From positions 620,001-684,000 of the forward strand of contig NZ_CP030944.1 of assembly GCF_013177635.1 (NCBI RefSeq): 64,000 nucleotides of DNA. Direction: 5' to 3'. Of the stretch, positions 13,837 to 23,003 are shown in pieces. How positions within the stretch are numbered: the stretch's first letter is position 1; each line of letters starts with the position of its first letter. This stretch comes from Arcobacter aquimarinus. GTDB lineage: Bacteria > Campylobacterota > Campylobacteria > Campylobacterales > Arcobacteraceae. The notes under the pieces are model-generated. The model had not been told where the DNA came from. It saw only the letters and a list, made by a program, of their open reading frames with translations, and ran no database searches. The position numbers and the translations under genes are program-made.

Positions 13837-14433
13837 TTATCTTCTTAGTAAATCTTCTAATATTTTAATATAATCTATTAGATTTTCTTTTAGATTGTAA
13901 TTTTCTAAAGTGATAGATTGAAGATACATTCCATCAGCAGTTGCAATTAAACTTGGAATAAATTTTTTAGCATTTTCTTTCAAGAATTCTTTATCAATCA
14001 TTTCATCAAAAATTTCATTTGTTGCACTAAATAAATAGTCATAACACTCTGCATTTTGTTGTTTTATAAATTCATTTTCAATATTTAAATACATATAAAA
14101 CGTATCTTTCATCAATTTATCAAAAGATTTATTTTCAGGGTCTGATAAAACTAAATAAAAAGAGAAAAGAGCTAAAAGTTTTTCAGAAAATGTTTTAGCT
14201 TTAGCTATTTCTTTTTCTGTATTAATAAAAAATTTCTCACCTTTTTTGTCAATTACTTCAAAAATCAACTCTTCTTTTGTTTTAAAGTAATGATAAAATT
14301 GCCCTTTTGACATATTTAAAGATTCAATAAATTTATTTAAAGAAAAGTTGTTTACTCCATTGCTTATAAATGCTTCATATGCTTTTTCACATATAAAATT
14401 AATTTTTTCATTAGAATCAACTATTTTTGGCAT
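13837..14433 (-). CDS. TetR family transcriptional regulator
   Basis: The N-terminal helix-turn-helix reads NFSLNKFIESLNMSKGQFYHYFKTKEELIFEVI, the classical TetR recognition pattern, followed by an alpha-helical ligand domain. The ATG at 14433 is preferred to a GTG at 14445 because of a GGGA just before it. It is convergent with the MATE-GNAT pair, which it may control. A perfect 20-base palindrome lies about 23 bases upstream of the start and is a likely autoregulatory site. Confidence 0.85.
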   Translation of the reverse strand: MPKIVDSNEKINFICEKAYEAFISNGVNNFSLNKFIESLNMSKGQFYHYFKTKEELIFEVIDKKGEKFFINTEKEIAKAKTFSEKLLALFSFYLVLSDPENKSFDKLMKDTFYMYLNIENEFIKQQNAECYDYLFSATNEIFDEMIDKEFLKENAKKFIPSLIATADGMYLQSITLENYNLKENLIDYIKILEDLLRR

Positions 14434-14456
14434 TTTTTTTCCCACATTTTATTTCA

Positions 14457-19343: not shown

Positions 19344-20243
19344 TTAAGCTATTTCTTTACTTGCTTTTAGTGGTTTGAAGTTTTTAAGAGATAAAAAAGC
19401 AGCTCTTGGTTTTTTTGAAGCAAAAGGTTTAACAGGTATATTTTTTACACTGTTATAAACAAAAAAGATATTTGTTCTATCATTTGGAGAAATATTATCA
19501 CTACTTCCGTGTAAAATATTTCCATCATGTAATACTAAAGTTCCAGCTTTTCCTAATGCAGAAACTAATTTATCACCTTTTGAAAGCTCTTTTATAGCAT
19601 TAATACTTGGAACTCCATACTCTTGTTTTTTTAATGATTTTTTATAGTTATCTTTTGGTGTAACACCTTGACAAGATACAAACTTTTTATGACTCTCTTT
19701 GATTAGATATAAAGGACCATTAAATTCTGTATTATCGCTTAGCATTAACCAAGCTGATAAACATCTACAATTTGGCATTCCATCTTCACTATGCCATGTT
19801 TCAAAATCGCTATGCCATGGAAAAGATTTTCCTTGATATGCTCTTTTTATATTTATTCTTCCATGATGAATATAAACATCACTTCCTAAAATTTGTTTTA
19901 CTTTATCTAAAATTCGAGAATCTTTTGATAATTTTTTATAAATTTCACTAAAAAGATGTTGATTAAATATTGTTCTTATTTTATTGCTATTTGGTTCACT
20001 TATGAACTCTTCATTTTTTCTTAGTTTTTCATTTAATTCTAATACTTTTAATTCTTGTGCGAATTTTTTTACCTCTTTTTGTGAAAAAACATTTGGAATT
20101 ATTATAAATCCATCTTTTTCGTATAATTCTAGTTCTTTATCATTTAATGAATATTTACCAATTTTTTCTTTTGAATAAACTACTTTATCAACTCTTTTAA
20201 TAATTTTTTCTTCTTTTGTTCTTGATGGGTACAAATCTTTCAT
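19344..20243 (-). CDS. ectD: Ectoine hydroxylase
   Basis: EctD converts ectoine to 5-hydroxyectoine using oxygen and 2-oxoglutarate. The Fe(II) site reads H144-x-D146 (FPWHSDFETWH) and H245 (LHGSSDN), with R257 (SPNDRTN) to bind 2-oxoglutarate. The FPWHSDFETWH segment is highly characteristic of EctD. The length of 299 residues is usual. It is the last gene of ectABCD, 9 bases after ectC, and a terminator follows. Confidence 0.95.
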   Translation of the reverse strand: MKDLYPSRTKEEKIIKRVDKVVYSKEKIGKYSLNDKELELYEKDGFIIIPNVFSQKEVKKFAQELKVLELNEKLRKNEEFISEPNSNKIRTIFNQHLFSEIYKKLSKDSRILDKVKQILGSDVYIHHGRINIKRAYQGKSFPWHSDFETWHSEDGMPNCRCLSAWLMLSDNTEFNGPLYLIKESHKKFVSCQGVTPKDNYKKSLKKQEYGVPSINAIKELSKGDKLVSALGKAGTLVLHDGNILHGSSDNISPNDRTNIFFVYNSVKNIPVKPFASKKPRAAFLSLKNFKPLKASKEIA

Positions 20244-20252
20244 TTTTATTCC

Positions 20253-20648
20253 TTAATCTTCTAATGGATAAACGCCATTTTCATCATGGTTTTCAGTTCC
20301 CTTAATTGGAGGATTAAAAACACAAATCAATCTCATATCAACATTTCCACCATATAAATAGTGTTCATCATGATTATTTAAAGCATACATAACTCCATCA
20401 TAAATATCATGAATTTCCCCTGTTTTTAAGTCTTCTATTTTTCCATCACCTGCTACACAATAAACAGCTTCAAGGTGATTTTGATAATGTATGTGAGTTT
20501 TTGTATGGGCTTTTATGATTGTTTCATGAAAAGAGAATCCCATTGCATCACCTTTTAAAAGCATTCTTCTACTAACCCATTGATTATCTTTTGCAAATAC
20601 TTCTTTTGAAGTTCCAATAACATCTTTTTTTATATCTCTTACTATCAT
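20253..20648 (-). CDS. ectC: Ectoine synthase
   Basis: EctC closes N-gamma-acetyl-diaminobutyrate to ectoine. The 131-residue cupin-fold protein starts MIVRDIKKDVIGT and carries GFSFHETII, KTHIHYQNHLEAVYC and LNNHDEHYLYGG, the conserved metal- and substrate-binding segments of EctC. The stop codon of ectB overlaps its ATG by one base (TAATG), so the two are translationally coupled. Confidence 0.97.
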   Translation of the reverse strand: MIVRDIKKDVIGTSKEVFAKDNQWVSRRMLLKGDAMGFSFHETIIKAHTKTHIHYQNHLEAVYCVAGDGKIEDLKTGEIHDIYDGVMYALNNHDEHYLYGGNVDMRLICVFNPPIKGTENHDENGVYPLED

Positions 20649-21928
20649 TAAAATTCACCTTTTAAATTATTTTTTCTTTCAATAATTAATCTATCAACAG
20701 CATTTTCAAATCTTTTAAGTCCTTCAATAAGTAACTCTTCATCTATTAACAATGGTGGTAAAAATTTTACAACTTGGCTTTCACTACCACAAGTTTCTAC
20801 TATTAATCCTTCTTGAAAAGCATACGCTGAAATATCACTTGCCATTGATTTATCATTTTTTATTTCAAAACCATAAGCTAATCCTCTTCCTCTTACTTCT
20901 ATTTCATAATCATCTTTATATTTTGCTGCAATTTTTTCTAAAGCTTCTTTTAAAATTTTTTCTTTATAAAAAACAGCTTTTGAGATATTGTCATTTTGCC
21001 AATAATGGTCTAATGAAACTTTTGAAGCAACAAATGCCAGATTATTTCCTCTAAAAGTTCCTGTATGTTCTCCTGGTTTCCATTGGTCTAAATGTGGCTT
21101 GAATAGTAAAAGTGCCATTGGTAAACCACCACCTATTGATTTTGATAAAGTTACCATATCAGGATTTATTCCTGCAAATTCAAAAGAAAAAAACTCTCCA
21201 CTTCTTCCATTTCCCACTTGAATATCATCAATAATTAATAAAATATCAAACTCTCTACAAATAGCTTCAAGTTCTTGTAACCACTCTTTCGAAGCTACAT
21301 TTATTCCACCTTCTCCTTGAATAGTTTCAAGTATAACAGCCGCTGGTAAATCAACACCACTACTTCCATCTTCTAAAAATTTTCTAAAATATGTAAGGGT
21401 ATTCATATCACCAAAATAGCCATCAAAAGGCATAAAAGTTGCATTTGTTCTACTTATATAACTCTCATCTCTATACTCATTATTTCCAGTAACTGCTAGT
21501 GAGCCTTGAGAAAGTCCATGATAACCATTTGTAAATGCAACAACATTACTTCTTCCTTTTACAAGTCGAGCTAGTTTAAGTGCCGTTTCAACAGCATTTG
21601 TTCCTGTGGGTCCTGTAAATTGAAGTTTATATTCAAGATTTCTTGGCTTTAAAATTAAGCTTTCAAAAGTTTGTAAGAACTCTTTTTTTGCAGTTGTTGC
21701 CATATCTAAACCATGAACTATTCCATCTTCTTGTAGATATTCAATCAAAGCTTTACTTATATGTTCATTATTGTGTCCATAATTTAAAGTTCCAGCTCCT
21801 GCAAAAAAATCAATATATTCAACTCCTTGCTCATCTGTTAAAGTAGCGCCTTTTGCTTTTTTAAAAATTGTTGGAAAACTTCTTATATATCCTCTTACTT
21901 CTGATTCTAAATTTTCAAATATTCTCAT
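20648..21928 (-). CDS. ectB: Diaminobutyrate-2-oxoglutarate transaminase
   Basis: EctB makes L-2,4-diaminobutyrate from aspartate semialdehyde using glutamate. It is a class III PLP aminotransferase: GPTGTNAVE binds the phosphate, D234 (IIDDIQVGNG) contacts the pyridine nitrogen, and K263 (LSKSIGGG) would hold PLP. Length 426. It is flanked by ectA and ectC in the standard order. Confidence 0.96.
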   Translation of the reverse strand: MRIFENLESEVRGYIRSFPTIFKKAKGATLTDEQGVEYIDFFAGAGTLNYGHNNEHISKALIEYLQEDGIVHGLDMATTAKKEFLQTFESLILKPRNLEYKLQFTGPTGTNAVETALKLARLVKGRSNVVAFTNGYHGLSQGSLAVTGNNEYRDESYISRTNATFMPFDGYFGDMNTLTYFRKFLEDGSSGVDLPAAVILETIQGEGGINVASKEWLQELEAICREFDILLIIDDIQVGNGRSGEFFSFEFAGINPDMVTLSKSIGGGLPMALLLFKPHLDQWKPGEHTGTFRGNNLAFVASKVSLDHYWQNDNISKAVFYKEKILKEALEKIAAKYKDDYEIEVRGRGLAYGFEIKNDKSMASDISAYAFQEGLIVETCGSESQVVKFLPPLLIDEELLIEGLKRFENAVDRLIIERKNNLKGEF

Positions 21929-21938
21929 TTTTTACCTT

Positions 21939-22421
21939 TTATTTGTTGTTTATTGGTCCAATTAAATATTGGATTTCTTCTTCATGTGAATTTAAAAAAT
22001 CTTCTAAAGAAAAAGCAGTTTCATTTTCTATTTTTGTATTAAAATGATTTGCTAATTTCTCAAAAACTCTTTGAGATGGTTTGTTGCTAGGAGAAACAGT
22101 TGATAAAATATATTTAATATCTTTATTTGAATTAAATATATTCATAATAGTTTTAAAAGCTATATTTTGACCTCTAAATCTTTCATCAACAGCTACTTGC
22201 CATATAAAAAGAGTGTCATTTTTATTTGGGAGTAAATATCCTGAAACAAAACCTATTATTTCATTCTCAAAAGTTGCTACACTACAAGTTTTACTAAAAT
22301 GTGTACATTGTAATAAATAAAGATATTCAGAATTTAAATCTAAAACTCCACCTCTTTTTATTAAATTATAAATATCTTTTGCATTTTCTTTTAATGGTTT
22401 GGAAAATAAAATCTCATTCAT
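21939..22421 (-). CDS. ectA: Diaminobutyrate acetyltransferase
   Basis: EctA acetylates diaminobutyrate at the gamma-amino group. The 160-residue GNAT protein has the acetyl-CoA region VDERFRGQNIAFKTI and the helix SPSNKPSQRVFEKLA. It is the first gene of the operon, with a GGAG ribosome site. The leader and promoter contain three phased dyads. No ectoine-specific aspartokinase gene is attached to this operon. Confidence 0.93.
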   Translation of the reverse strand: MNEILFSKPLKENAKDIYNLIKRGGVLDLNSEYLYLLQCTHFSKTCSVATFENEIIGFVSGYLLPNKNDTLFIWQVAVDERFRGQNIAFKTIMNIFNSNKDIKYILSTVSPSNKPSQRVFEKLANHFNTKIENETAFSLEDFLNSHEEEIQYLIGPINNK

Positions 22422-22445
22422 TATGCTCCTTTTTTACTTATTTAT

Positions 22446-22504
22446 TGTAAATATTTTACATAAAATATGTAATTATATTACAAATAAGTTGTAAATTTAT
22501 AGCA
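22446..22504 (-). promoter_or_regulatory. ectA control region: three 22-bp-phased TGTAA-type dyads
   Basis: Two perfect 15-base dyads, TGTAAATATTTTACA (22446-22460) and TGTAATTATATTACA (22468-22482), have centres exactly 22 bases apart. A degenerate copy, TGTAAATTTATAGCA (22490-22504), lies a further 22 bases away. On the minus strand the third copy overlaps an extended -10 box (TGCTATAAA). The first two would lie in the early transcript region before the ectA ribosome site. Even helical phasing suggests cooperative binding by a regulator on one DNA face. Confidence 0.55.
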
Positions 22505-22602
22505 TATAAAAATTAAATGAAACTTAAAAATAGTTTAAAATAGTAAGAGATATTTATATATAGAGACTATAAAAAGGGCGTGTTTATTAAATTTTGTAAT
22601 TT

Positions 22603-22651: not shown

Positions 22652-22993
22652 TTAAAATGTATCTAGGTCTTGAATTTCATTTTCAGAGATATTTTCTAAT
22701 TTAGATTCAATTATTTCTAAAAAGGCATTTCTGTTTTGTTCATCCATATTTTCATTTATTATTTCTAGTATGTATTTAATACCATTAGCATTGATTTTTT
22801 TTATATTTGCAAGATAGTGTACAAAAGCAACTATTTTAACGTCATTAATAGAGTAAAGTTTTTTAATTTTATGATTTTTTTGAGGTAATAAACCTTTTTC
22901 TTCATACATTTTTAAAGTTCTAATTTTCGCACTTAAAAGTTCAGAAATGCTACTAAGAGGAAGTACATCTTTATCATTATTTAGTAAAGCCAT
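22652..22993 (-). CDS. MerR-type regulator
   Basis: The protein of about 113 residues has a winged-helix HTH of the MerR type (SISELLSAKIRTLKMYEEKGLLP, then KKLYSINDVKIVAFVHYL) with a short helical tail and no obvious metal-binding cysteines. The ATG at 22993 is chosen over a TTG at 22999 because AAAAGG sits 6 bases before it. It follows the peptidase gene by about 10 bases and so shares its transcript, and precedes ectA on the same strand. It may control either the cell-wall gene or the ect operon. Confidence 0.75.
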   Translation of the reverse strand: MALLNNDKDVLPLSSISELLSAKIRTLKMYEEKGLLPQKNHKIKKLYSINDVKIVAFVHYLANIKKINANGIKYILEIINENMDEQNRNAFLEIIESKLENISENEIQDLDTF

Positions 22994-23003
22994 TTTCAAC
23001 CTT

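Follow-up and report, generated by a model that had tools for sequence, protein, structure and literature searches.

The ectoine gene cluster of Arcobacter aquimarinus and its control region

The stretch of DNA analyzed here, referred to as the window, comprises 64,000 nucleotides (positions 620,001 to 684,000 of contig NZ_CP030944.1) of the 2.52-Mb genome of Arcobacter aquimarinus, and all positions are counted from its first letter. Its minus strand carries the genes for ectoine biosynthesis. The product of ectA (21939..22421) scored 157.6 bits with the diaminobutyrate acetyltransferase model TIGR02406 (cutoff 120.6), and the products of ectB (20648..21928) and of ectC (20253..20648), which encodes ectoine synthase, scored above the cutoffs of TIGR02407 and NF009806, respectively. 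A further gene on this strand (19344..20243) encodes an ectoine hydroxylase-like protein (ectD-like), for which the 306 bits obtained with TIGR02408 are below the cutoff of 336.5. Upstream of ectA, and in the same direction, are located a gene for a MerR-type regulator (22652..22999, minus strand; called merR in the following and its product P0003) and a gene for an M23 peptidase. A gene for a TetR-type regulator with weak similarity to BetI is found at 13837-14445 of the window.

Reading toward ectA, the promoter region contains a TTTAAG-N5-TTTAAT box (22512..22528, minus strand), an extended -10 element TGC-TATAAA (22496..22504, minus strand) and an array of short dyads. The -10 element was recognized from its sequence, and most of 22 relatives have a TGnTATAAAT-type motif whose distance to the array is constant. 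Only one base separates the -10 hexamer from the array, which extends over the transcription start, expected near 22489, and over the leader. The upstream box reads TTTAAG-TTTCA-TTTAAT, lies at roughly -39 to -23 when counted from a predicted start, and resembles the box bound by HP1043/HsrA, for which the activator consensus is ttTAAG-5bp-tTTAAg at -26 to -42 (PMC8345958); TNAAG-type repeats are kept at this place in relatives. As the box fits the HP1043 consensus in sequence and in approximate place, an essential activator may drive this promoter, with the MerR-type protein gating it.

Dyads before ectA are repeated every 22 bp

The ectA control region contains two 15-mers of the form TGTAA-N5-TTACA, TGTAAATATTTTACA at 22446-22460 (centre 22453) and TGTAATTATATTACA at 22468-22482 (centre 22475), exactly 22 bp apart from centre to centre, as had been stated in a preliminary description of this DNA. 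There, both had been called perfect palindromes, which has to be corrected since only 6 of 7 positions pair in either 15-mer. The partial third copy reported at the next 22-bp step is present as well (TGTAAATTTATAGCA at 22490-22504, centre 22497) and matches the first 15-mer at 11 of 15 positions; its outer part, however, is the -10 region, and we regard it as a half-site that runs into the -10 box. The claim that such spacing would not be expected by chance was borne out: pairs at 22-bp spacing were absent from 300 dinucleotide-preserving shuffles of the 64-kb window, which amount to 19.2 Mb, and also from 20,000 shuffled versions of the 230-bp intergenic region, where a single dyad arose in 0.1% only. 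Across the whole source genome, the ectA site is the only array of four half-sites with fewer than three mismatches.

Two readings of such arrays are possible, with TGTAA-N5-TTACA or with TTACA-N7-TGTAA as the basic unit. Among 25 arrays that are not located at ect genes, a two-dyad fit was better with N7 in 16 cases and with N5 in 4, while 5 were ties, under a scoring that gives N7 a slight advantage; in the ectA leaders, the central N7 dyad is the axis of symmetry of the conservation, which becomes weaker outward. Although the TGTAA-N5-TTACA sequences are there as first described, they are disfavored as the basic unit, and we favor the inward TTACA-N7-TGTAA reading; the resemblance of the outward TGTAA half-site to the TGTNA half-site of GlnR/TnrA counts against this choice. 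The window would then contain three 17-bp operator dyads on the minus strand: dyad 1 (22478..22494, TTACAACTTATTTGTAA) with two perfect half-sites and within a lattice that is kept in relatives, the central dyad 2 (22456..22472, TTACATATTTTATGTAA), also with two perfect half-sites, and a weaker dyad 3 (22434..22450, TTACAATAAATAAGTAA) with 9 of 10 half-site letters. The 15-mers at 22446..22460 and 22468..22482 are accordingly read as the junctions of dyads 2 and 3 and of dyads 1 and 2. Four other exact N7 dyads occur in the source genome, three within called open reading frames (ORFs; L304-L306) and one in the gap before an AmtB-like ORF (L303); as they are mostly in ORFs, there is no clear second target in this genome. 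Two weak arrays with three mismatches in another genome (G014:589766 and G014:1247053) are contained in ORFs and were regarded as chance matches.

Loss of the dyads or of their spacing in related ect promoters, which the preliminary description had named as evidence against its proposal, is not what we found. The half-site lattice, in which TGTAA comes 12 bp after TTACA and the next TTACA 10 bp after that, and so forth, is kept before ectA in about 25 loci of relatives, and in most of them it begins directly after the -10 element. In 22 ectA leaders, the distance between identical half-sites not more than 60 bp apart was 22 bp in 35 cases, 44 bp in 7 and another value in 4. The mean match of the six half-sites in these leaders was 4.0, 4.6, 4.7, 5.0, 4.4, and 3.1 of 5, compared with 1.66 of 5 expected from base composition; thus even the sixth half-site, which belongs to dyad 3, is partly kept, and the two central ones, which form dyad 2, are the best conserved of all (4.68 and 4.95 of 5; n = 22 promoters). 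Three genomes with merR and ectC that a strict pattern had missed carry 17-of-20 arrays before ectA (L307-L309), and genome G006 carries a complete array that is set in the other register. In the ect-bearing genomes represented by L030, L036, and L039 no array was seen at ectA, and merR is absent too.

The merR gene accompanies the array and osmolyte genes

Within the genus, an orthologue of merR (60-100% identity) is found beside ectA in 13 of 13 genomes with ectA, either upstream in the same direction or divergent, and merR is absent from 16 of 18 genomes without ectA (Fisher p = 5e-7); because the genomes are related, such p-values overstate independence and are indicative only. Among 104 genomes of the family, merR was detected in 57, ectC in 44, and the array, allowing at most 2 mismatches, in 45, of which 43 have merR. 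The two that lack it, G097 and G098, have a single weak match in common, identical in sequence. Of four genomes with ectC but without merR, two are incomplete, and the other two, members of genus g20, have no array. A wider sample of 399 genomes across the order contains merR in 40 and the array in 30, and 29 of these 30 have merR. As a control, the pattern read backward was found at 2 places in the family scan and at 7 in the order scan. Some genomes have a merR that adjoins no osmolyte genes (G065, G068, G073, G074, G091, G101, G105, and G001), and in G101 and G105 the array was not found at the threshold used. At L031:2033-2209 (genome G070), two separate arrays lie between divergent merR and ectA, one of which possibly serves autoregulation of merR.

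In genomes where ect genes are absent or where merR is away from them, arrays are located before proVWX, BCCT transporter, proB, and putA genes, often adjoining merR, and less clearly before TRAP and KamA genes. Comparison of the products encoded downstream of arrays with NCBIfam models placed ProV, ProW, and ProX and glutamate 5-kinase (ProB) above their cutoffs and BCCT transporters above the family cutoff; PutA-like proteins scored below cutoff, the TRAP components are unassigned in substrate, and the KamA-family product is a radical-SAM protein. In Malaciobacter halophilus (L021) and Arcobacter sp. CECT 8985 (L025), the array is present at ectA and merR is found elsewhere, beside a BCCT gene with its own array. 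About 48 of the 57 merR genes of the family lie within about 5 kb of osmolyte genes, and each of the 12 merR loci inspected outside of it, in another six families, adjoins ect, proVWX, BCCT, proB, or putA genes. In several g19 genomes, the only sites before proV are degenerate ones.

Some of these loci deserve mention on their own. Arrays between merR and the proline genes proB and putA-like (L296:5157-9000 and L299:305-4050) suggest that proline is another of the controlled solutes. Two ect-bearing genomes have arrays before TRAP transporter genes (L251:2616-2664 and L252:2674-2722), where ectoine uptake is possible, and in genome G102, which is devoid of ect genes, an array is directly followed by a gene for a KamA-family radical-SAM protein (L261:943-2186), which could point to a beta-amino-acid osmolyte.

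As array and merR are kept together across relatives and mark other osmolyte genes, the pair resembles a hitherto undescribed master switch by which the Arcobacter group would adapt to salt. An oligomeric repressor reading phased sites had been proposed earlier for ectoine synthesis; the oligomeric regulator is now well supported, and the array with merR marks betaine and proline genes in addition to ect. The nearby MerR-type protein, which the preliminary description had mentioned only as a reagent for footprinting, is now strongly favored as the regulator.

The MerR-type protein P0003

The merR product is small (about 113-115 amino acids) and scores above the gathering score of Pfam MerR_1, which places it in the MerR superfamily. 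An AlphaFold model built from 44 orthologues has a MerR-type fold with a mean pLDDT of 87, and among solved structures it is most similar to DNA-bound GlnR (Z 10.3) and TnrA (Z 10.2 and 9.9). A sequence search of the PDB returned mostly spurious low-complexity matches, of which only GlnR was sensible. There is no cysteine and no separate ligand domain in P0003.

Several assignments to known regulators were rejected. The HspR model matches P0003 with an E-value of 1.4e-9 and 37.8 bits, far below the curated HspR cutoff of 105, and the source genome encodes a separate true HspR (L302; 115.5 bits). P0003 was not taken for a GlnR/TnrA protein, as the array (TGTAA-N5-TTACA or TTACA-N7-TGTAA) differs from the operator TGTNA-N7-TNACA, nor for a MarR protein of the EctR/CosR type, as it is a MerR protein by Pfam and by fold. 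HhmR of Halomonas, which had seemed relevant to the salt response, is a LysR protein.

A putative MerR-type repressor of compatible-solute genes

Taking neighborhood, co-occurrence and fold together, the gene adjacent to ectA is the likely regulator, and we consider it probable (about 0.78) that the array is the operator of a compatible-solute regulon kept in parts of the Campylobacterota, at which the merR product would repress at low salt and from which it would be released under osmotic stress. In the proposed mechanism, the small MerR-type protein would bind TTACA/TGTAA half-sites in 17-bp dyads placed every 22 bp, two or three dimers binding cooperatively on one face of the DNA. From the position of the array alone we deduce that the protein would be a repressor: with an array that starts one base after the -10 element and covers the expected start and the leader, binding should block transcription at low osmolarity. 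An osmotic up-shift would release the protein, so that ectABC and the ectD-like gene are transcribed from a promoter that may also carry an HsrA/CosR-type activator box, and in relatives the same protein would control proVWX, BCCT transporters, and proline genes. What the sequences themselves show is the pattern, kept in relatives with a fixed geometry, and its company with merR and osmolyte genes; binding, repression, and response to osmotic stress are attributed to P0003 provisionally. Since P0003 contains neither cysteine nor a separate ligand domain, it would most likely be released by intracellular ions or a partner protein. A bolder and rather doubtful extension would make this MerR-family master regulator of osmoadaptation the osmosensor itself: the rise of intracellular ions would directly dissolve its cooperative multi-dimer assembly on 22-bp-phased DNA, with neither a ligand domain nor a second messenger involved, and in several families of Campylobacterota the production and import of ectoine, betaine, and proline would be under its control.

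The protein might also bind the array and act mainly as an activator, or in both senses, for instance by changing the shape of the promoter in the manner of classical MerR proteins. Many members of this family activate transcription through the twisting of a long promoter spacer, and in the classical activators that respond to metals, redox state, or drugs the operator lies within a promoter spacer of 19-20 bp. The array of the window, however, is located downstream of the -10 box and therefore outside the spacer, and for this reason a classical MerR activator was rejected. GlnR is informative on both sides, as it activates and represses nif depending on the position of its site, and a GlnR site just downstream of a promoter represses (PMC6191146). 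We regard predominant activation as unlikely.

Less probable still is that another regulator, a TetR protein or a MarR-type relative of EctR/CosR, binds the array and that merR is a co-inherited neighbor. Known dedicated ect repressors are MarR proteins (PMC5924519; PMC7876524), and half-sites like TGTAA...TTACA suit many helix-turn-helix dimers. Yet merR accompanies the array at unlinked betaine and proline loci in several families, so that plain neighborhood is no explanation. The idea that merR belongs to a cell-envelope operon unrelated to ect can draw on its position behind the M23 peptidase gene in the window, in G001, and in some other genomes; since the peptidase is absent from the locus in most other genera, where merR stays with osmolyte genes and is often divergent from them, this has very little to recommend it. 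Chance dyads, finally, could be imagined in a region so rich in A and T and in a genome with ten single dyads, but are practically negligible in view of the shuffles without phased pairs and of an array kept in many genomes.

Comparison with known regulators

In the literature searched, which covered few subscription papers, we found no description of a regulator, operator, or regulon of the kind proposed here, and none of compatible-solute gene regulation in Campylobacterota. With repression by the MerR-type protein as the preferred reading, this group gains a named candidate regulator, an operator, and a list of targets, and a small protein without a ligand domain offers a simple system for the study of osmotic-stress sensing at a promoter.

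Known systems share single traits with the one proposed. The HAIR operator of HspR is an inverted repeat with N7, and for HspR of H. pylori cooperative loading of three dimers on 70-80 bp around one such repeat has been proposed (PMC6102357); HspR is related to P0003 in sequence, and its three-dimer loading is a close mechanical parallel to the three 22-bp units of the ectA array, whereas its half-site and its targets are others. GlnR and TnrA are the closest solved structures (Z about 10) and are likewise small; the GlnR half-site TGTNA, in the operator TGTNA-N7-TNACA (PMC6191146), is similar to TGTAA, and GlnR also represses downstream of a promoter. This operator, however, exceeds the outward N5 reading of the array by 2 bp and is opposite in orientation to the N7 reading, and these proteins of Bacillota act on nitrogen genes and show only 20-26% identity to P0003 within the aligned domain. 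BusR, a repressor of betaine uptake, recognizes a pair of sites 22 bp apart (PMC8517857), but combines a GntR-type DNA-binding domain with an RCK_C domain that binds c-di-AMP, whereas P0003 belongs to another family and lacks a c-di-AMP domain.

With regard to function, the nearest counterparts are MarR proteins. EctR1 of Methylomicrobium represses ectABC from a site overlapping a -10 region (PMC5924519), and Vibrio CosR represses ectABC, proVWX, betIBA-proXWV, and a BCCT gene (PMC7876524), largely the same set as proposed for P0003; in the passages on which we draw, a phased operator of three dyads is not described for CosR or EctR. P0003, a MerR member that by the tests made is neither HspR nor GlnR/TnrA, may therefore be a functional analogue of CosR from an unrelated family and, if this is true, the role of CosR has been taken on independently by a MerR protein.
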